DNA of 33,973 bases from Clostridia bacterium (lineage in GTDB: Bacteria > Bacillota > Clostridia > Oscillospirales > SIG627): positions 1-33,973 of the forward strand of contig JAFQMA010000053.1 of NCBI GenBank assembly GCA_017414535.1, in the 5' to 3' direction. Positions 9,858-32,784 of this stretch are shown here, one piece after another. Within the stretch, counting starts at the first letter, position 1, and each line of letters starts with the position of its first letter. Under the pieces are notes generated by a model, which ran no database searches, had not been told where the DNA came from, and worked only from the letters and a program-made list of their open reading frames with translations. Position numbers and translations under genes: made by a program.

Positions 9858-9875
9858 AGAGAAGCAGTGGCATGA

Positions 9876-9916
9876 AAAAAGCCTTTCCGCCATTTGGCGG
9901 AAAGGCCTCTTTTTTT
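9876..9916 (-). terminator. Terminator of the VWA/zinc-ribbon operon
   Basis: A perfect 11-bp stem GCCTTTCCGCC / GGCGGAAAGGC with a 4-nt loop, with A and T runs on both sides. It lies just past the stop codon of the minus-strand gene at 9926 and can also back up the ackA terminator. Confidence 0.88.
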
Positions 9917-9925
9917 GTTGTAAGG

Positions 9926-12235
9926 CTAAATCTTATTGCCGCAGGAGGAGCAGAAGAGGGCGCCCTCGGAAAGCTTGGCACCGCAGTTGCCGCAGAACTT
10001 GGGCTGCTGAGGCGCGGGAGCTTCTTTCTCCGCAGGCGCGGGGTCTGCCACAGGAGCGGGCTCAGCCGCAGGAGCGGGCTCTGCTACGGGTGCAGGTTCA
10101 GCCACAGGTGCAGGCTCAGCCGCAGGCGCGGGGTCTGCCACAGGAGCGGGCTCGACCACAGGAGCGGGTTCAGCCGCAGGAGCGGGCTCAGCCGCAGGAG
10201 CGGGTTCAACCACGGGAGCGGGCTCTGCCACGGGAGCAGGGGGAGCAAAGGGAGCGGGAGCCTCAAAGGAGGCGGAATCCTTCTGCTTCTTTATTTTCTT
10301 TTCCTTGGGGGCTTTGGGAGGCTTGGGGGCCTTGGGTCCGTTCCCTGCGGGAACGGGGATCAGACGGGCTACGATGGCAAGGATCAGTGCGCCGAGGGTC
10401 AGACCGATCCAAAGGATCATGGTCCACATGGCGTCGTTTTCCTCCTCCATGAGAGCGTAGGCCTCGTCCACGGAGCTCTGTGCCTCAAAGTAGAAATCAG
10501 CGGAATTGACCGTGCCGTGCAGGGTGAAGAACTCCACTGCCATGAATACGGTCACCACCAGAAGCACTGCCGCCACAAAGTAGAGGGAGGCGGAGACGAC
10601 GTTTCGTACGGCCACGGCGGTACCGTTTGCGGCACGGCTCTTGCCGAAGCTCTTCACGGCGAGAAGCACGAAGACGGTCAGACCTGCCGAGCCCAGCAGT
10701 GCCAGCATCAGGGGAAGGAGGCTGAGGATGGAGAAGCCCTCGCCCTCGGTCTCCACCACGGCGGCGGCACGGCGCTCCACCACAAAGCTTTGGGTGGACA
10801 CGTTGCCGGAGGGGCTCTGTGCGGTAACGGTGAAGCTGTTCTTACCTGCCTTCAGGGGCAGGGTCACGGTAAAGCCGCCGTTTTCGTCGGCGGTAACGGT
10901 CTGTTCACCGATGGTGACGGTGCAGCCCGATGCGGTCTTACCTACCAGCGTGTATTCGCTCTTGGTGGTGGAAACGGGTGTGCTTCCCACCTCGTACAGG
11001 AAGAGGGTGGGGGCCTTCCAATCCGTCCAGATCTTTCCGCCCTTGCGGAAATGAAGAGAGTCAGAGACGGAAAAGACAAATTCGATCTCGTTATCATATT
11101 CCTGCAGCTGTACGGAAAGGGAGCTTGCGCCCTTGCAGCTCAGCTCCTCCTCGACTCCGTTGACCGTCAGAACGGCGGGGATCGCCTCGGTGAAGCGGGA
11201 AAAATCATAGCTGATGCGGTACTGTGCGGCGGTGGTGATCTCCTCGGTGGGCACGGTCACGAGGGCGGCAAGCGCCAGATCCACCTCGGCGGTTACGGGC
11301 TGAGAGACCACGCCGTGGGATTCGTATCTTAACTCGATGCGGTATTTTGCGGCGGTGCTGTGATCGGCGGCGATCACGTCCACAGTCTCGTCCTCGCCCA
11401 GTCGCTGGGAATAGAAGGGCTCGGCCTCACCGTCGCGGAATACGGCCAGAATATAGGCATCGGCCATGTATTTTCGGGTTTTGCTCCAGTCGATACGCAG
11501 GGAGGAATCAATGAAGTCCACCAAGGCATCAAAGCCGTCCATGGCCTCGGGGGTGTTGGGATTGGTATAGGCGAAGGGTGCATCGGCAACGAGGGAGTCA
11601 AAGACCTCCACGCCGCCGGATACGGTGCGCACCTCCATGTGAAGGCGCCACTTGTCGAAGGTGTTGAGCTTCGACAGGGAGAAGCTGAGCTCCTCCTCCT
11701 TGCCTGCCACGGCGGTACCCGTGCCAAGCTCCTCCTTGCCTACCACGTTGCCGTTTTCGTCACAGACGGCGGCGGATACGGTGTAGCTGATGGGGGAGGT
11801 GCCCGCATAGGACAGAAGGTACTTGACCTTCAGAGTGCCTCCGTCGGCCGAGCCGGAAAGGGAGCGGATGCTGAGCACCTCGCCGTAGGGCATCCATTCC
11901 ACTTCCATATCCTTGTTTTGTCCCTTGTCGTAGCAGATCTTCCACTGACCTGCCGTAGCCTCGGGTACGTAAAGGTAGATGGCCTTGCCGTCGTCCTCAC
12001 GGCGCAGACCCTGCCAATCCCCCGCGGTCTTGCCGGCGGTCTTACCGTCGGGTGCGATGAGATATACGGCGGGGGCGGCGGTATCGTAGGTGATGCGGAC
12101 GGCCATGTTTCTCTTTTCCGTCAGGCGGAAGAGATCTTCCGTTTTTTCTGCGGCAAAGGCAGGCATTGCCAGGGTGGGGATCACTCCTGCAAGGAGCACC
12201 AGTGCCAGCAGAAGGCTGAATAGTTTCTTTTTCAC
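9926..12235 (-). CDS. Secreted/membrane protein with Pro/Ala linker and C-terminal zinc ribbon
   Basis: A 769-residue protein of unknown function. In order it shows a signal peptide (about 1-28, ending PAFA), an extracytoplasmic region of about 470 residues with beta-sandwich-like segments (including a bacterial Ig-like stretch near 420-480), three membrane segments (about 501-523, 547-569, 606-627), a cytoplasmic lysine-rich stretch, a Pro/Ala/Glu/Val repeat linker (about 658-736), and a zinc ribbon with Cys748, Cys751, Cys762 and Cys765 at the extreme C-terminus. The start is a GTG with AAGGAGG directly upstream; that RBS overlaps the stop codon of the VWA gene, so the two are coupled. The layout would place the zinc ribbon in the cytoplasm and the sandwich domains outside, as in a sensor or scaffold. 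Function is not inferred further. Confidence 0.82.
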   Translation of the reverse strand: MKKKLFSLLLALVLLAGVIPTLAMPAFAAEKTEDLFRLTEKRNMAVRITYDTAAPAVYLIAPDGKTAGKTAGDWQGLRREDDGKAIYLYVPEATAGQWKICYDKGQNKDMEVEWMPYGEVLSIRSLSGSADGGTLKVKYLLSYAGTSPISYTVSAAVCDENGNVVGKEELGTGTAVAGKEEELSFSLSKLNTFDKWRLHMEVRTVSGGVEVFDSLVADAPFAYTNPNTPEAMDGFDALVDFIDSSLRIDWSKTRKYMADAYILAVFRDGEAEPFYSQRLGEDETVDVIAADHSTAAKYRIELRYESHGVVSQPVTAEVDLALAALVTVPTEEITTAAQYRISYDFSRFTEAIPAVLTVNGVEEELSCKGASSLSVQLQEYDNEIEFVFSVSDSLHFRKGGKIWTDWKAPTLFLYEVGSTPVSTTKSEYTLVGKTASGCTVTIGEQTVTADENGGFTVTLPLKAGKNSFTVTAQSPSGNVSTQSFVVERRAAAVVETEGEGFSILSLLPLMLALLGSAGLTVFVLLAVKSFGKSRAANGTAVAVRNVVSASLYFVAAVLLVVTVFMAVEFFTLHGTVNSADFYFEAQSSVDEAYALMEEENDAMWTMILWIGLTLGALILAIVARLIPVPAGNGPKAPKPPKAPKEKKIKKQKDSASFEAPAPFAPPAPVAEPAPVVEPAPAAEPAPAAEPAPVVEPAPVADPAPAAEPAPVAEPAPVAEPAPAAEPAPVADPAPAEKEAPAPQQPKFCGNCGAKLSEGALFCSSCGNKI
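10027..10263 (-). repeat. In-frame Pro/Ala repeat tract
   Basis: About 13 imperfect 15-18-bp units coding for variations of PAP(V/A)(A/V)(E/D) within the gene at 9926. The DNA copies are similar enough for slippage to change their number between strains. Confidence 0.8.
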
Positions 12236-12245
12236 GTTGTCCTCC

Positions 12246-15200
12246 TTACAGCTTGCGCTTGCCACAGTCAAGCTTGGTCTTTTCGTTCCAGGTCAGGTAG
12301 TATTCTTCCACGTTCTTGTTGCCCGTGCCGCGTGCGATGACGGCGAAGTTCAGAAGATCCTCGCTATCCTCGTAGACACCCAGCAGAACGCGACCGTCGG
12401 CATGGAATTTCTTATGGAAGATCCACCAGCCCACGTCGATCTCGGCGAAGGCCACACGCTCGATGGCAAAGAGCTTGGAATGGGCGTTGAGGTTGCCCTG
12501 ACCGCCGATATTCACGTGGACGTTATCGGTCTCCCATTTTAAAGCACGGGTGATGCTGGCCTGCAGACCGTTTGCCTCCTCCTCGATGCCCAAAAGCATG
12601 ACGTTGAAGGGGAGATAGCCTGCCTTGAAGCTTGCCTTGCCGAATTCGATGGCTTCGATGAATTTGACGGTGGTCTCAAGGGAGACAAACTTTTGTCCGA
12701 AGCTGAAGGAAAGGGTAATATCGTCCAGCTTCAGAAGGGAAACGTCACCGACCTTTTCATCCAGACCCTTGATGTAATCGCTGATCTTGGAGATGCCAAA
12801 GTCGCAGGAGCCCTGGAATACGCTCAGGAAGAAGTTCTTGTCGGGGGTGATGTCGGACACCTTCAGCTTGAAGTCGTCCACGGTCACGGGAACGGGACCG
12901 ATGCTGGTGTTGACGGAGGCATCCACGCCGAAGCCTGCGCTGTTGAGCCAGAGCTTGTCCACGCCCTGGGCATCCTTCAGCTGCTTCCAATCCATTTCCA
13001 GCATAACGCCCGTGCCCTTAAAGAGGAAGGGAAGCTCCACTTCGAAGGTAAAGCCGAAGGAAACGTCGGAGGTGTTGATGCGGAATTTTAAGCTGTTTCT
13101 GTCTTCCTCCCAAAGATTGATGAGGAAGTTGCCGAATTTCGGCGGGCCGGGGCCGCGGTCCTTGCCGAATTTCACGGTGATCTCCGTGTCGATGCCGGCG
13201 CTCTGTCCCGTAATGACACCCTTGAAGTCGCCCTTGAAGTCAAAGAGCTTTTGCTCCTTGGCGCTCTTCAGCAGCACGTCCTGCAGGGGCAGATCGGTGG
13301 AGAAGGTGTCCGTTTCCAGAATGAGCTTGTTGGGATACAGCTTCAGTCCGGGGGAATCCATTTCCATGAGGGTGGGCAGAAGCAGCAGGGGAGAGATGAT
13401 GGGATGGACCTTGTAATCGTCGGAATCGGGATCGTTCAGGGTATCGTTATAGAGGATCACGCCGCCCAGCGCGCCGATGCGCGCTACCTGACAGCGGCTT
13501 GCCAGAAGCTTGGCAAAGCCCGTGGCGGTGGCGGTGTCGTATTCCACGTAGGCGCCGTGGTTATCCCGCATGGTGATCTCGTAGGCATTCAGGTTGCCCT
13601 CCAGCACCACGTCGCCGTCGAAGTGGAGCCAGCCGTTCAGGGTCACGTCACCGGAGAGGGTCACGGTGTTGCCGTTTTCCACCTTGGTGCCGGAGGTGAA
13701 CTTGTAGGGACCGAACTCGGTGCTCCTCAGCTGGGAGGGATCCACCACGGAAAGGGCATTCGTCATGATGCCCGTGCGGTCGTTTACGTGAACGGTCACG
13801 TTGTAGTTACAGCAGACCAGATTTTTGGGCAGGGTCAGGCGCAGGGTGGTATCGTTGACGAATTCCACCTTGATCTGATCGGCGGAGTAATCAAGCAGAC
13901 CGTCAAGCTCTACGCTGACTTTATCCTCGGCGGTAAAGCCGTCCACGGCCAGAGTCACCACGGTGGGCTCATTGCTCTTGCCGATGCGGCGGGGAGAAAT
14001 GCCGTAGAGGGTCTTTTCGGTCATGACGATCTTGGTATCGGTCTCGTCGGGATCGGGCACGTCGGTATTGCCGCCCAGGTAGTAGGGGACCGTATCGGAT
14101 ACGGTTCCCTCGTAATCCTTGTGGGAGAGGGTCACCTCACGGGATACACGCAGGGTGTCCTTGGCGCGGTAGGTGACGGTGTAACGGTAGCGAGCCTGAT
14201 TTCTCAGCTCGTCGTAGAAGCTTTCCAAAGAGGAGGAATCCTGCACGGCAAGATAGGTGCCGCCGGTGGAATCGGCCAGCGCGGTCATGTATTCGGAGTC
14301 CACACTGCTGCCAAGACCCAGAGAGAAGAGCACGATACCGCGGCTTCTTGCCACAGAACCGATCTCGTTTTCGATCTGGGCCTCATCGCGGCGACTGCCG
14401 TCCTGACCGTCGGACAGGAGCAGGATGTAGTGAACCTCGGTGGGATCGGAGGAGAAGCTCTTGAGGGATTCTACGATGGCGCCGTACATATTGGTGCCGC
14501 CGCTGGCGCCGATGCGCTCAGCCGCCGCACGAACGTCGGTCACGGCCGTATCAAAGCCCAGATTGGTCTCCACCCAGTTGCTGAAGGTGACCAGCGCTAC
14601 GTTTTCGCCTGCCTCCATGGTGTCGAGGTAGGTGAGCACGGCCTTTTTCAGATCCTGAATGGGCTTGCCTCCCATACTGCCGGAAACGTCACAGCAAAGG
14701 AGAATATTGGTAGCGGTAATATCCACCTTTTCCACGGTGAAATCGGTGATCTCCACACCGCAGTCGGTCAGCTTCAAAAGCTTTTTCAGCTCCTCGGGGG
14801 TGCCGGCGTAGTCCTTGCCCACGTTGAAGGTGAGCTTGACCTCCTCGAAGTTTGAGGCATCCACGTCGGTGATCTTCAGCGCGATGCGGACCTTGTTGAC
14901 CGCGTCGGTCATATAGTCCTCAAAGCTTTGCTTTTCTTCCTTTTCTTCGTCCTTATTCTGCTCGGAATTTTGCTCCTTCTGCTCCTCCTTGGCCTTCTGT
15001 GCCATGAGCACCACGGCCTCGTCGGAGGAATGGCGGGTAGCGGCATCAACCAGATCGGCTACCTTCTTGAGCTTTTCGGGATCGTCCTTGTCCTGAATGG
15101 CGTCGGCCAAACCTGCCATGGGAACCATGAAGCTGTCGTCGTCACTGACACCTACCTGGCTGAGGGCGGCGGAAATGTGCAGGGAGGCCTTATCGTCCTT

Positions 15201-16322
15201 GCCGTCGCTGTATTCCCACTTGGCCAGCTGCAGATTTGCCTTGGCGCGGTTGGGCGAGTCGGCATCCTCTGCCTCCTCGGCCAGACCGTTCTTCACTCTC
15301 TGCAGGGCAGGGGAGGAGGAAACGCTGTCCAAACGCTCCAACGTGGCATCGGGCTTTTCACCCAGCGTCTCGGAGGTGAGAACGCCCTTTTCCTTCAGCT
15401 CCTTTAACCTGGCGGCAACCTGCTCCGCATGGGCACGGTAATTCTTACCGAAGTCCTCGGAGAAGGAGCCTTCCTTCACCAGTCCCTGCGCGTACAGCTC
15501 GGAAATGATGGCGAATTCCTCGTAGCCTGCATTTTCATCCAACAGCTTGGCACCCTGAGAGAAGGAGCCGTTCAGCACGTTCATCTTCAGGCGGCATTCG
15601 CGGAAGGTGGGCACGTACGCCAGTCCGGGCTCGGTCTCGGCGGCACTCTTTAGGCGGGACAGACAGCTTTTCAGCTTATCGGAATCCTTTTCTCCCTCGG
15701 AAACGAATTTTTTAAATACGCCCTCGGACTGGATCACGGCCTCGGCGGCCTTGTCGTAGGAGTCGGAAAGAATGCGACTTTCCAAAGCCTCCTTGGCGTG
15801 CTTTTTCAAATTCTTCAGGGCATCCTTATCGCCGCCCTCCACGGTCTGACCGAGAAATTCGGCGGCTGTGCGGTCAAGCTTTCCTTCGCTTAAGGCGGCA
15901 TCACACAGCGCGATGGCGGCATTGCCCTCCTCCGCACCGTTCTCCACGGCCTTTTGGATCAGAAGCTTTGCGCCCAGCGCATCGCCCTTCATGGCGCAAA
16001 GATAGCCCTCGCACAGCACCAGCTCCTCGGACTCGGGCATTTCCGCCCGCATATCCTGCAGAAGCTCGGTGGCGTAGGAGAGGCCGTCCTCACGGCTTCC
16101 CATGGCGCAGGCAAAGCTCAAAAGCGCGCTTTCCTCCTCCACGTTTACCTCGCGCTCGGGCTCGTAGAAGAAAAAGAGCATGAGCGAGGTCACGGCCGAA
16201 AGGGTAAATACGCTTCCCAGCACGATGGAGGTCACCCGACCCGATCGGCGAAAGATCGCCAAAAGGACAAAGGTGACCAGCGCAGGAAGCAGTCCCAGCG
16301 TGATCTGTAAAAAGATGTCCAT
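12246..16322 (-). CDS. Large membrane-anchored von Willebrand factor A domain protein
   Basis: A 1358-residue protein. Two N-terminal membrane helices (about 5-24 and 31-51) with basic residues between them predict that the rest lies outside the cell. Residues 55-440 are helical and repeat-like (TPR/Sel1-type appearance, not assigned). An acidic/lysine/glutamine coiled stretch is at about 441-465. The VWA domain (about 538-715) has a complete metal-ion-dependent adhesion site: DVSGS at 545-549, Thr610 in GGTNMYG and Asp638 in LLSDGQDG. After it come beta-rich regions, including a right-handed repeat-like stretch (about 870-930), and a long C-terminal part I cannot assign. The RBS is GGAGGT. 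It is the first gene of an operon with the zinc-ribbon protein, with a 10-base gap. A surface adhesion or assembly role is plausible from VWA biology but unproven. Confidence 0.85.
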   Translation of the reverse strand: MDIFLQITLGLLPALVTFVLLAIFRRSGRVTSIVLGSVFTLSAVTSLMLFFFYEPEREVNVEEESALLSFACAMGSREDGLSYATELLQDMRAEMPESEELVLCEGYLCAMKGDALGAKLLIQKAVENGAEEGNAAIALCDAALSEGKLDRTAAEFLGQTVEGGDKDALKNLKKHAKEALESRILSDSYDKAAEAVIQSEGVFKKFVSEGEKDSDKLKSCLSRLKSAAETEPGLAYVPTFRECRLKMNVLNGSFSQGAKLLDENAGYEEFAIISELYAQGLVKEGSFSEDFGKNYRAHAEQVAARLKELKEKGVLTSETLGEKPDATLERLDSVSSSPALQRVKNGLAEEAEDADSPNRAKANLQLAKWEYSDGKDDKASLHISAALSQVGVSDDDSFMVPMAGLADAIQDKDDPEKLKKVADLVDAATRHSSDEAVVLMAQKAKEEQKEQNSEQNKDEEKEEKQSFEDYMTDAVNKVRIALKITDVDASNFEEVKLTFNVGKDYAGTPEELKKLLKLTDCGVEITDFTVEKVDITATNILLCCDVSGSMGGKPIQDLKKAVLTYLDTMEAGENVALVTFSNWVETNLGFDTAVTDVRAAAERIGASGGTNMYGAIVESLKSFSSDPTEVHYILLLSDGQDGSRRDEAQIENEIGSVARSRGIVLFSLGLGSSVDSEYMTALADSTGGTYLAVQDSSSLESFYDELRNQARYRYTVTYRAKDTLRVSREVTLSHKDYEGTVSDTVPYYLGGNTDVPDPDETDTKIVMTEKTLYGISPRRIGKSNEPTVVTLAVDGFTAEDKVSVELDGLLDYSADQIKVEFVNDTTLRLTLPKNLVCCNYNVTVHVNDRTGIMTNALSVVDPSQLRSTEFGPYKFTSGTKVENGNTVTLSGDVTLNGWLHFDGDVVLEGNLNAYEITMRDNHGAYVEYDTATATGFAKLLASRCQVARIGALGGVILYNDTLNDPDSDDYKVHPIISPLLLLPTLMEMDSPGLKLYPNKLILETDTFSTDLPLQDVLLKSAKEQKLFDFKGDFKGVITGQSAGIDTEITVKFGKDRGPGPPKFGNFLINLWEEDRNSLKFRINTSDVSFGFTFEVELPFLFKGTGVMLEMDWKQLKDAQGVDKLWLNSAGFGVDASVNTSIGPVPVTVDDFKLKVSDITPDKNFFLSVFQGSCDFGISKISDYIKGLDEKVGDVSLLKLDDITLSFSFGQKFVSLETTVKFIEAIEFGKASFKAGYLPFNVMLLGIEEEANGLQASITRALKWETDNVHVNIGGQGNLNAHSKLFAIERVAFAEIDVGWWIFHKKFHADGRVLLGVYEDSEDLLNFAVIARGTGNKNVEEYYLTWNEKTKLDCGKRKL

Positions 16323-28638: not shown

Positions 28639-28974
28639 ATGTTCAGTAAAATCTATAAAAAACTGTTCCCCGACCGCTATTACGCCTCCGCCACGTACCG
28701 GCGGGAGGCCGCGGCAAAATACGACAACAAACTGCTCAAATGCGTGACCGAGCGGCGCGAAGACGGGGACGTCGTGCTGTGCAGGGACGCCTATATCTGC
28801 GTGAAGGCGGGCTTCGTTTTCGTCAATTCGGAGACGGCCAGCATCTTCAAATGTCGGGACGAGGAAACCCGATGCGGAGAGCTGATGAGCCACGACGGGG
28901 TCATCTTCACGGGAAACGATGAAATCGAAGGAAAGGAAAGAAGTATCATCTGCTACTTCAAATATTACCGATGA
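28639..28974 (+). CDS. Small basic protein of unknown function, probably leaderless
   Basis: I do not recognise this 111-residue protein. It starts MFSKIYKKLFPDRYY, has no membrane segment, contains six cysteines scattered in short strands (KCVTE, LCRDAYICVKAGFVFV, FKCRDEETRCGEL, ICYFKYY), and looks mostly beta. No Shine-Dalgarno sequence precedes the ATG, and a perfect promoter puts the transcription start at about the ATG itself. The open frame extends upstream but that part overlaps the promoter. Its stop overlaps the start of the next gene (ATGA), which supports real translation and coupling. It is the first gene of the operon with the two cyclophilins and ribF. Confidence 0.68.
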   Translation: MFSKIYKKLFPDRYYASATYRREAAAKYDNKLLKCVTERREDGDVVLCRDAYICVKAGFVFVNSETASIFKCRDEETRCGELMSHDGVIFTGNDEIEGKERSIICYFKYYR

Positions 28975-29630
28975 AAGCCATGAAACGCATTTTTGCTCTC
29001 ACCCTCTGCCTTGCCCTGCTCTTCTCCTTTACCGCCTGCGGTGAAGAGGAAAAGGAAACGGGCAGCAGTGACGAAAGGATCGCCGCCATGCCCATCGAGG
29101 TGGACGGTGTGTCCTATCAGAAGACCGAGGAGACCACGGATTTCGTCTGCATTCAGATGAAGAGCGGCGGCCGTATCCTCCTGGAGCTTTACCCCGACGT
29201 CGCCCCCATCACCGTGGCAAATTTCCAAAAGCTGGTGGCGCAGGACTTTTATAACGGTCTCACCTTCCACCGTGTGATCCCCGGCTTTATGATCCAGGGC
29301 GGCTGTCCCGAGGGCACGGGCATGGGCGGACCCGGCTGGAGCATCAAGGGCGAATTTTCCGCCAACGGCGTGAAGAACGATCTCAAGCACACCCGCGGCG
29401 TGCTTTCCATGGCAAGAGGCAGCTACTCGATGGACAGCGCGGGAAGTCAGTTTTTTATCATGCATGCGGACTATCCCTCCCTCAACGGCCAGTACGCCGC
29501 CTTCGGTGAGGTGCTCTACGGCATGGACACGGTGGATCAGATCGCAGGAGTGAAGACCCTTTCCAACGACATGCCCGTGCAGAAGCAGGTCATGTACGAG
29601 GTCTATTTCATGGCGCCCGCGGCGCAGTAA
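28971..29630 (+). CDS. Peptidyl-prolyl cis-trans isomerase, cyclophilin type, lipoprotein
   Basis: A 219-residue cyclophilin exported as a lipoprotein: signal MKRIFALTLCLALLFS with lipobox FTAC (Cys23). It assists folding outside the membrane. Catalytic features are FHRVIPGFMIQGG, GSQFFIMHADYPSLNGQYAAFG and a cyclophilin core of about 160 residues starting near residue 55. The central core is close to that of the next gene, so the two are a tandem duplication with different destinations. The start could also be the ATG at 28980; the first overlaps the stop of the upstream gene. Confidence 0.92.
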   Translation: MKAMKRIFALTLCLALLFSFTACGEEEKETGSSDERIAAMPIEVDGVSYQKTEETTDFVCIQMKSGGRILLELYPDVAPITVANFQKLVAQDFYNGLTFHRVIPGFMIQGGCPEGTGMGGPGWSIKGEFSANGVKNDLKHTRGVLSMARGSYSMDSAGSQFFIMHADYPSLNGQYAAFGEVLYGMDTVDQIAGVKTLSNDMPVQKQVMYEVYFMAPAAQ

Positions 29631-29640
29631 AGGAGAAAAC

Positions 29641-30153
29641 ATGGCATTTGTAAAGAGTGAAGAAAAGACGAATTTCGTTTGCATCGAAATGGAGCAGGGC
29701 GGTAAGATCGTCGCGGAGCTGTATCCCGATATTGCCCCCATTACCGTGGAGAATTTCCAAAAGCTGGTAGCAGAGGGCTTCTATAACGGCCTCATCTTCC
29801 ACCGCGTGATCCGAGGCTTTATGATCCAGGGCGGTTGCCCTCAAGGCATCGGCATCGGCGGCCCCGGCTGGACCATCAAGGGCGAATTCAAAATGAACGG
29901 TGTGGAGAACGCGCTCAAGCACGAACGCGGCGTTCTTTCCATGGCACGCTCCCGCGAATTTGATTCCGCAGGAAGCCAGTTCTTTATCATGCACCGTACC
30001 AGCCCCCATCTGGATGGCCAGTACGCCGCCTTCGGCAAGGTGGTAGAGGGCATGGAGACCGTGGACGCCATTACGGATGAATTTACCGATTACAACGACA
30101 GACCTGCCGTTGACCAAAAAATGAAGGCGGTTTATTTCGTTAAGGAAGCGTAA
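29641..30153 (+). CDS. Peptidyl-prolyl cis-trans isomerase, cyclophilin type, cytosolic
   Basis: A 170-residue cyclophilin with no signal sequence, so it acts in the cytoplasm. It has FHRVIRGFMIQGGCPQG, GGPGWTIKGEF, the catalytic-core SAGSQFFIMH and LDGQYAAFGKVVEGME. The RBS TAAAGGAG is very good and overlaps the stop codon of the lipoprotein gene. It is a paralogue of that gene (shared blocks such as ELYPD-APITV and GVLSMAR). Confidence 0.95.
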   Translation: MAFVKSEEKTNFVCIEMEQGGKIVAELYPDIAPITVENFQKLVAEGFYNGLIFHRVIRGFMIQGGCPQGIGIGGPGWTIKGEFKMNGVENALKHERGVLSMARSREFDSAGSQFFIMHRTSPHLDGQYAAFGKVVEGMETVDAITDEFTDYNDRPAVDQKMKAVYFVKEA

Positions 30154-30156
30154 GAT

Positions 30157-31065
30157 ATGGCACCCGAAAAAAACGGGATGCGGGGGACCTGCGTTGCCCT
30201 GGGCAATTTCGACGGCATCCACTTAGGCCACGCGCACATTATCTCCACCTGTGTCGCCGCCGCCAAGGAAAAGGGACTTTTGTCTCTGGTGTGGAGCTTT
30301 CGCCGCCATCCCGAGCACATCATGAAGGGGAATTTTTCCACCGGCAATATCATTTCCAATTCGGACAAGGACGAGATCCTGCGCCGCATGGGCGTGGATC
30401 TGCTCTTTTTGGAGGATTTTGAGCGGGTGCGCCATCTTTCCCCCGAGGAATTTTGCGAGAAGATCCTTTTGGGCACTCTGTCCGCCAAGGCGCTGTTTTG
30501 CGGCTTTAATTTCCGCTTTGGCAAGGGCGGCGCGGGGGATGCCCGCTTTTTGAAAAAATATATGGAGGAGCGGGGCGTTTCCGTGTACGTGGCCCCGCCC
30601 GTCTGCGTGGGGGGCGAGCCCGTTTCCTCCACCCGTATCCGCGCCCTTCTGACGCTGGGCGATATGGAGGGAGTCAAGGGGCTTTTGGGGCGCAATTACT
30701 CCATTCGCTTTCCCGTGCTCCACGGGAAAAGGCTTGGCTCGCGCATCGGCTTTCCCACCCTCAATCAAGTCTTCCCCGAGGAATACGTGACCCCCAAGAT
30801 CGGCGTTTACGCCGTGAAGGTGCACGTGGACGGAAGGGCTTGGCGCGGCGTTTGCAACGTGGGCATTCGTCCCACCGTGGAGGAGGACGGCTGCCTTTTG
30901 GCAGAGACTCATATTTGTGATTTCTCGGGGGACCTGTACGGAAGACTGGTCACCGTGGAATTTTTGCGCTATCTGCGCGAGGAAAGAAAATTCGAGGATC
31001 TGGACGAGCTTTGCCGCCAGATCGATCGGGACAGAAAAGAGGCATTGGCACTCTCGGAGGAATAA
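30157..31065 (+). CDS. ribF: Bifunctional riboflavin kinase / FAD synthetase
   Basis: A 302-residue enzyme that makes FMN and then FAD from riboflavin. The N-terminal FAD synthetase half has GNFDGIHLGH (16-25) and the SSTRIR motif near residue 152. The C-terminal riboflavin kinase half has IGFPTLNQV near 195, the PTLN nucleotide/metal site, and the terminal region RYLREERKFEDLDEL. The RBS is AAGGAAG. It is three bases after the cyclophilin gene, so it is part of the same operon. No FMN riboswitch fits in the gap. Confidence 0.95.
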   Translation: MAPEKNGMRGTCVALGNFDGIHLGHAHIISTCVAAAKEKGLLSLVWSFRRHPEHIMKGNFSTGNIISNSDKDEILRRMGVDLLFLEDFERVRHLSPEEFCEKILLGTLSAKALFCGFNFRFGKGGAGDARFLKKYMEERGVSVYVAPPVCVGGEPVSSTRIRALLTLGDMEGVKGLLGRNYSIRFPVLHGKRLGSRIGFPTLNQVFPEEYVTPKIGVYAVKVHVDGRAWRGVCNVGIRPTVEEDGCLLAETHICDFSGDLYGRLVTVEFLRYLREERKFEDLDELCRQIDRDRKEALALSEE

Positions 31066-31068
31066 GGT

Positions 31069-32784
31069 ATGAAAAAAGGGCTTTCGCGCATCCTTTCTCT
31101 CATCCTTGCGGTAGTATGCATACTACCGCTCTTTTCCGTTGCCCGTGCCGCCGCTGAGCCCGCCCCCGAGGTGGCAAGCGGCTCGGCTCTGCTCTATCAC
31201 GTGGAAACGGGCAAGATCCTCTATGAAAAGAATGCGGATACCCGAATAAGCCCTGCCGCCTTCACAAAAATGATGACGGCACTCCTCGCCTTTGAATACC
31301 GCCGCGAAGCGGGCAATATTACCGTGACCGTCACCGAGGAGATGCTCTCCGGGGCGGGCGGTACCTCCATGCGCCTGAAGGCGGGGGAGACCCTGCCGCT
31401 GGATAGCCTTTTGGCAGGGCTTGTGGTGCAGAATGCCAACGACGCCGCACTGGTTCTGGCTTCCGTGGTGGGCGGCGATATCTCCTCCTTTGTGGACAAG
31501 ATGAACGCCCGCGCCAAGGAGCTGGGCATGAGTCACAGCTATTTTGCCAATCCTACGGGTGTGGACAGTGCCGTTATGTATTCTACCCTGCAGGACTGTC
31601 TTATTTTGGCCGCCACCCTCTATCGCGTTAACGATTTCATGGTGGTAAGCGAGAAGCAGAAGGCCACCATTCCCGCCACTAACCTGACGGAGGAGCGGGT
31701 CTATACCAACAAGAACCTTTTGGTGCCCTATTCCTACGTTTACGATTACTATATGGAAAATACCCGCGGCATGGTCGCAGGCTTTACCGCAGGGGCAGGC
31801 TATTGCTGTGCCACCACCCGCAAGGCGGGGGATTGCACCTATCTGGTGCTGGTCTCCGGCGGTAAGGATCGCAGCGAAAAGCAGAACGGCACCGATATTT
31901 CGTCCTACCGTGACGCCAAGAGCCTGATCGAATGGGCGGAAAAGAATTTTGCCATGCAGAGCGTTTGCACCTCCGGCGAGGTGATCTGCGAGGTGCCCGT
32001 GCGCCTGGCCGCAGGGGTGGACCACGTGATGCTGGTCACCAAGGGGGAGCTGGCGACCCTTCTTCCCGTAGGAGAGGATACCAAGGCTCGGATCACCACT
32101 GCCGTGCGCACCAAGGGCGAAAGCTTTACCGCGCCCATTGCGGAAGGGGAAAGCTACGGCGAAATGGACGTGTTTTTCGACGGTGAGCTTATTGCCACCG
32201 TGCCTCTGGTGGCGCTGAACAGTGTGCATCTGTCGGGATGGCTTGTGATGTGGGATGCGGTGGAGCGCTTCTTCTCCCGCGGACCCGCCCGCGTGGTGCT
32301 GATCCTGTTGATCGCGGCCGCCGTCATTTACGTGGCGGTGCTCATCGGCACGGTCTGGGTGCACGCCGCTCGCCGCAACCGCGCCCGCAATCAGCTCATT
32401 TCCGAAATGAACAGAAAAGAAGACCTTCGCATGAAAAAGGTAAGGCAGGAGGAGCGGCTCAACCGCCGTGCCAGATTCCGCCGTGCGGGTGTGTTTCTGA
32501 GAGAGGGCTTCCGTGTGCTCTCCGGTGAATCGGAGGCCATGGATACCGGCTCCCGCAGATCCCGTGCACCCAGTAAGGCGGTGGCCCGCGTGCCGGAAAA
32601 ATACCGTAAGGCAAAGCTTCCTCCGCCCTCAGCCGCACCCCGCCGCGCGGAAAAGGCACCCCGCCGTGCCGCGCCCGTTCGTCCCGCCTCCAAAAGACCC
32701 GCTCCTCAAAAGGACAGCCTGCGCCAAAAGCAGCTGGAGGCTCTGCGGGCCGCAAGACAGAGAAAGGACGGCAACCGCAAATAA
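31069..32784 (+). CDS. D,D-carboxypeptidase-like (peptidase S11) protein with lost active site
   Basis: A 571-residue homologue of D-alanyl-D-alanine carboxypeptidases (DacA/DacF). It has a signal peptide (about 1-28) and the S11 fold (about 30-290): SGSALLYHVETGKILYEKN, KMMTALLAFE, SYFANPTGVDS, YLVLVSGGKDR. All three penicillin-binding motifs are changed. The SxxK nucleophile Ser is Ala64 (AFTK, Lys67 kept), SxN is NAN (122-124), and KTG is VAG (236-238). It is thus predicted to be catalytically dead. A membrane helix (about 409-431) follows, and then a 140-residue Arg/Lys/Pro-rich cytoplasmic tail, which is not usual in PBP5-like enzymes. It starts three bases after ribF. A structural or sensory role is inferred, not shown. 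Confidence 0.88.
   Translation: MKKGLSRILSLILAVVCILPLFSVARAAAEPAPEVASGSALLYHVETGKILYEKNADTRISPAAFTKMMTALLAFEYRREAGNITVTVTEEMLSGAGGTSMRLKAGETLPLDSLLAGLVVQNANDAALVLASVVGGDISSFVDKMNARAKELGMSHSYFANPTGVDSAVMYSTLQDCLILAATLYRVNDFMVVSEKQKATIPATNLTEERVYTNKNLLVPYSYVYDYYMENTRGMVAGFTAGAGYCCATTRKAGDCTYLVLVSGGKDRSEKQNGTDISSYRDAKSLIEWAEKNFAMQSVCTSGEVICEVPVRLAAGVDHVMLVTKGELATLLPVGEDTKARITTAVRTKGESFTAPIAEGESYGEMDVFFDGELIATVPLVALNSVHLSGWLVMWDAVERFFSRGPARVVLILLIAAAVIYVAVLIGTVWVHAARRNRARNQLISEMNRKEDLRMKKVRQEERLNRRARFRRAGVFLREGFRVLSGESEAMDTGSRRSRAPSKAVARVPEKYRKAKLPPPSAAPRRAEKAPRRAAPVRPASKRPAPQKDSLRQKQLEALRAARQRKDGNRK

Follow-up and report, generated by a model that had tools for sequence, protein, structure and literature searches.

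What does a cell do with a penicillin-binding protein fold that no longer carries the residues for catalysis? This question is raised by a gene on the forward strand (positions 31069 to 32784) of the window, the whole stretch of 33,973 nucleotides analyzed here, which is the entire contig C34 of a 1.49-Mb clostridial draft genome (57 contigs, estimated to be 86% complete). A preliminary description of this locus had proposed a maintained but inactive D,D-carboxypeptidase of the PBP5 type, extended by a membrane helix and a basic tail and possibly sensing peptidoglycan.

The window protein has a PBP5 architecture without the catalytic side chains

The gene encodes 571 amino acids without an internal stop, and its frame is thus intact, as had been described. 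Its translation, Pfam matches, and alignment to solved PBP5 structures identify a pseudo-D,D-carboxypeptidase. A putative signal peptide (residues 1 to about 29, 31069 to 31155), recognized in the sequence and as a helix at residues 3 to 23 of the structural model, ends at a predicted cleavage site and is followed by the S11 catalytic-fold domain (residues 30 to 255, 31156 to 31833). The match of this domain to Peptidase_S11 (PF00768; 2.9e-40, 138.7 bits versus a curated cutoff of 27.6) leaves the S11 fold as recognizable as first reported. Residues 294 to 387 (31948 to 32229) match PBP5_C (PF07943; 2e-9, 37.8 bits versus a cutoff of 21.2), indicating that the C-terminal beta domain of the PBP5 architecture is also present. 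In an AlphaFold2 model built on 29 sequences, the pLDDT of the ectodomain was mostly above 90, and the top structural matches were Escherichia coli PBP5 and other D,D-peptidases (VIA Z of about 36 to PBP5; rmsd of 5.0 over 345 aligned residues). As modeled, the PBP5/S11 fold is retained.

In the alignment to the solved PBP5 structures, alanine takes the place of the SxxK serine (A64-F-T-K67 within PAAFTK, 31258 to 31269; GCC at 31258), N122-A-N124 that of SxN (31432 to 31440; AAT for N122 at 31432), and V236-A-G238 that of KTG (31774 to 31782; GTC-GCA-GGC from 31774). Codons and alignment therefore agree with the three substitutions originally noted, and only Lys67, Asn124, and Gly238 survive from the motifs. 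A usable serine and KTG elsewhere in the same fold had been named as evidence that would count against inactivity; no replacement SxxK or KTG was found elsewhere in the aligned S11 domain. The protein belongs to S11 by fold and sequence; as a D,D-carboxypeptidase, it lacks the SxxK nucleophile, SxN, and KTG alike. In E. coli PBP7, another S11 protein, any one of the mutations S67A, S124A, and K231A is enough to abolish Bocillin binding (PMC11586513), and these are the same three positions that are replaced in the window protein. Because the side chains essential in PBP7 are missing, we strongly infer that penicillin binding and acyl-enzyme chemistry have been lost.

The genome encodes two further S11 proteins, a DacA-like protein on contig C47 with SVTK, SAN, and KTG and a transmembrane (TM)-anchored protein on contig C32 with SxC and KSG. 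The cell thus has S11 proteins besides the pseudoenzyme.

KTG-less S11 genes lie directly behind ribF in three families

Three base pairs upstream of the pseudoenzyme gene lies ribF (30157 to 31065, forward strand), encoding FAD synthetase/riboflavin kinase (Pfam FAD_syn, 6e-41; Flavokinase, 2e-39). We compared 48 S11 copies linked to ribF, a set defined by the S11 gene lying directly downstream of ribF in all 48: 19 from the family of the window (f1, window included), 13 and 15 from two other families of the same order (f19 and f20), and one from a named Clostridia contig (L041). KTG was found in none of them (0/48), and no intact KTG adjoined ribF in this set. The SxN serine was retained in only 9 copies and the SxxK nucleophile in 30. 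Conversely, none of the KTG-intact S11 genes examined adjoined ribF, and no S11 neighbor of ribF was found within the fetched flanks of 14 genomes from 12 other families. In a class-level search, all matches past the threshold were KTG intact and none adjoined ribF, the window itself excepted; the threshold, 1e-105, is strict, and the clade may be spread more widely.

Within f1, the gene was found in 19 of 22 genomes. Because the other three also lacked ribF, a missing contig seems likelier than a loss confined to this gene. Four of five congeners of the window carry an orthologue (47 to 59% identity). The five gene-bearing members of this genus have A, T, S, S, and A at the nucleophile position, and the SxN serine and KTG are absent from all of them. 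The relatives' genomes mostly appear to be metagenome-assembled drafts, and their start codons were chosen by rule. Motif loss is thus conserved among homologues, no intact relative was found behind ribF, and the substitutions are not those of a single altered assembly.

In many f1 loci, ribF and the S11 gene overlap by 1 to 4 bases or are separated by no more than about 20, as in the window, and the two are presumably coexpressed. This is probably all that ribF contributes: we found nothing tying flavins to the pseudoenzyme, and in the clustered f1 loci no neighbor other than ribF was conserved beyond the genus.

Upstream of ribF, the window carries tandem genes for cyclophilin-type peptidyl-prolyl isomerases (28971 to 29630 and 29641 to 30153), which also occur in the window's genus; the first has a likely lipoprotein signal (LFSFTACG). 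Repeats at the contig end (33508 to 33535, 33711 to 33757, and 33899 to 33945, spaced by about 190 to 200 bp) resemble the 5' half of a serine tRNA (GGAGAGATATCGAAGTGGTCATAACGGGGCTGACTCGAAA); neither ARAGORN nor Rfam detected an RNA gene there. Elsewhere, an 18-nucleotide (6-residue) tandem repeat at 10033 to 10237 lies within an open reading frame of 486 residues without a Pfam match (9872 to 11332), and a minus-strand frame of 1,358 residues (12246 to 16322) contains a von Willebrand factor A domain.

KTG was probably lost first and the nucleophile repeatedly thereafter

A wide tree was computed from 101 rows, 44 of the KTG-less clade and 57 others, with the motif columns removed, and changes were counted on the unrooted tree. 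The 44 KTG-less rows occupied one side of a branch with moderate support (SH-aLRT, 86), and 40 of them formed a starred clade, with a support of 98. KTG status changed only twice, the second time in an unrelated pair from family f8 (L142/L154). The SxxK serine changed 9 times within the 44 KTG-less rows versus twice among the 57 others, and the SxN serine 7 times versus once. On a second tree of 64 rows, from which columns 161 to 173 were also omitted, at least 9 nucleophile changes fell among the 48 ribF-linked rows. Independent changes were too few for informative independent-pairs tests of motif loss.

Judged from these unrooted changes and the intact relatives, the history was probably one early loss of KTG, followed by loss of the SxN serine in most lines and then by repeated loss of the nucleophile. 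This order can be read from living relatives, which are KTG intact, KTG-less, or nucleophile-less. The window protein hence belongs to an ancient, maintained clade of pseudo-D,D-carboxypeptidases.

The membrane anchor is ancestral and the long tail is not general

A predicted TM helix spans residues 409 to 431 or thereabouts (32293 to 32361; hydropathy peak, 3.1). In the model, it is part of a single helix (residues 405 to 480) that comprises the TM segment and a charged stretch. The basic tail (32362 to 32781) consists of this charged helix up to about residue 480, followed by an Arg/Lys/Pro region modeled with low confidence. Its roughly 140 residues include 44 K/R and 14 D/E, and by the positive-inside rule it would lie on the cytoplasmic side. 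The protein would thus be exported and bitopic, its S11/PBP5_C ectodomain facing outward and its basic tail the cytoplasm.

The helix had been regarded as an addition to the fold. However, a strongly hydrophobic segment toward the C terminus is also present in 53 of the 55 KTG-intact relatives compared. Most tails of these relatives are basic and short, with a median of 20 residues, indicating that both the anchor and the basic end are ancestral in the order. Only the long tail is a peculiarity, shared by the window's genus with some sister genera. Its proposed conservation holds in part. All five gene-bearing members of the window's genus share a long basic tail with a KAVA(R/K)xPEKYR-like element (KAVARVPEKYR, residues 503 to 513, within the tail of the window protein; conserved in the alignment of the genus), in which K503, V505, A506, and P509 are invariant across the window and its four congeners, and ten f1 members besides the window have tails of 80 to 198 residues. 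In contrast, f19 and f20 members mostly have tails of 9 to 30 residues. Since most f19/f20 tails are short and the unrelated inactive f8 pair is long tailed, the long tail cannot be the purpose of the whole clade.

A remodeled pocket points to a noncatalytic role

Near the pocket, the clade favors residues of its own. Met170 occurs in 31 of 44 clade rows, Asn236 in 27, and Gly122 in 22, where intact relatives have His, Lys, and Ser, respectively; Asn214 is favored as well (32/44). These preferences speak for a newly acquired constraint and against simple decay. Overall, most of the clade has other residues in place of the KTG Lys and Thr, the SxN Ser, and the rim residues His163, Leu165, and His170. 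In D,D-carboxypeptidases of Mycobacterium tuberculosis, the stem peptide is contacted by SxN, by a groove-lining Leu and Thr, and by the KTG strand (PMC4281109), and some of the positions replaced in the clade coincide with the S11 stem-peptide contacts described there; the groove Leu would correspond to Leu165 in window numbering.

These replacements make it doubtful that the old pocket senses stem peptides without cutting them, as had been suggested. Such a sensor would bind the peptides in the inactive pocket and relay the signal across the TM helix to the tail; the bitopic anatomy would suit this, and the fold, Lys67, and, fully or nearly so, Asn124 and Thr240 are indeed kept. It would nevertheless have to work with contacts exchanged in most of the clade and, in most f19/f20 members, with a tail too short for a signaling domain. 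We therefore consider it unlikely.

A changed chemistry, in which Lys67 and Asn124 serve another reaction and members with Ser64 perhaps act as esterases or in acyl transfer, is less probable still. The SxxK lysine is invariant in the compared rows, Asn124 nearly so, and Ser64 persists in 30/48 copies, so that a weak or different activity could exist in some members; migrated catalytic residues have been described for some pseudoenzymes (PMC10211241). However, the nucleophile was lost repeatedly, including in the window, while the gene and its place stayed, and the clade comparison revealed no new conserved nucleophile.

Stepwise motif loss and tight gene coupling might also be expected of a decaying relic retained only through its translation with ribF. 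Yet the frame is open over the S11 fold in 48/48 ribF-linked copies, with lengths of about 400 to 630 amino acids, and Lys67, Glu107, Phe141, Gly153, Gly164, Asp176, and Gly234 are invariant or nearly so. Moreover, for the pair L019/L023, from another genus than the window's, 361 ectodomain codons gave a dN of 0.055 and a dS of 0.61 to 0.76, that is, a dN/dS of about 0.07. The coding sequence of this pair, the only measurable one because pairs in the window's own genus were at or near synonymous saturation and were not used, is under purifying selection. Together with the gene's position beside ribF wherever ribF was inspected in the three families, these data lead us to reject the relic as very improbable. 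An artefact of sequencing or assembly, conceivable for one contig of an incomplete draft, is refuted, since four congeners and many other genomes, assembled independently, show the same losses.

The original view of a maintained pseudoenzyme rather than a chance mutation is thus upheld by the clade-wide losses, the purifying selection in the close pair, and the preserved fold. Conserved without its catalytic residues, the protein very probably has a nonenzymatic role. With a probability of roughly 0.6, we propose that the window protein is a maintained S11 pseudoenzyme that most likely acts as a noncatalytic scaffold for, or regulator of, active peptidoglycan enzymes. Because the stem-peptide contacts have eroded too, a protein-binding scaffold or regulator appears likelier than a peptide sensor. 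In this model, the signal peptide would export the protein, and the single TM helix would hold the ectodomain outside and the tail inside. Presumably unable to trim pentapeptides or to be acylated by beta-lactams, the protein would dock onto an active partner through the remodeled pocket face (positions 122, 170, and 236) and PBP5_C. Candidate partners are the genome's intact DacA (C47), the SxC-type paralogue (C32), a PBP, or a hydrolase. In genera that have one, the long tail may tie the protein to a cytoplasmic or membrane-surface partner. Such a logic would resemble that of LytM pseudo-hydrolases such as DipM.

More tentatively, at slightly less than even odds, these genes may represent an unrecognized bitopic pseudo-PBP family, fixed in its place behind ribF across three families belonging to a single Clostridia order, regulating extracellular peptidoglycan enzymes via a remodeled, substrate-free pocket and, in some genera, linking these enzymes to the cytoplasm by a long basic tail. 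We found no description of an inactive S11/PBP clade or of a ribF-carboxypeptidase operon in open-licence PubMed Central. Family-based annotation would label the members of this clade D-Ala-D-Ala carboxypeptidases and thereby inflate counts of PBPs and beta-lactam targets.

Comparison with known systems

The window protein shares its fold with E. coli PBP5 (DacA) and PBP7 (class C low-molecular-weight PBPs, peptidase S11) and, with PBP5, also the order of the S11 and PBP5_C domains. It differs in its three replaced catalytic side chains, bitopic TM anchor, long basic tail, and linkage to ribF. The membrane anchor of PBP5 is an amphipathic helix.

An S11 domain, a TM helix, and a basic C-terminal tail are also combined in TM-anchored S11 proteins of the order that have kept KTG and in the SxC paralogue on C32 (L003). 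Unlike the window protein, they have intact SxxK and KTG/KSG motifs and tails of mostly 7 to 35 residues, and they do not lie beside ribF in the examined loci. The SxC paralogue belongs to a clade of its own, together with the f1 paralogues L034 to L038 and L160 to L172; these S11 proteins are TM anchored, have SxC in place of SxN, and carry KTG or KSG. The SxC recalls the Streptomyces K15 D,D-transpeptidase; K15 Cys98 mutants were among the fold matches of the window model.

The f8 pair (L142 and L154, genomes G052 and G028) has also lost the SxxK serine, SxN, and KTG (PGELTK, NND, and IGG) and bears a basic tail of 144 to 150 residues with a net charge of +37 to +38. Its place in the tree is separate from the main clade, and it thus represents an independent case, known here by its motifs and tail.

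Among regulators, LytM factors such as DipM keep a cell wall hydrolase fold without catalysis as a regulator or adaptor (PMC10336132). Their fold is unrelated to the S11 fold of the window protein, and regulation has been demonstrated for them, whereas it is proposed for the window protein. Steering of cell wall enzymes by pseudo-hydrolases is known for LytM folds; in open-licence PubMed Central, we found no description of a catalysis-free clade with a penicillin-binding fold. Finally, M. tuberculosis Rv3330, an S11 D,D-carboxypeptidase, differs from the window protein in having three intact motifs and binding meropenem; it too has a TM helix, and its clade-specific conserved surfaces have been suggested to bind partners (PMC4281109).
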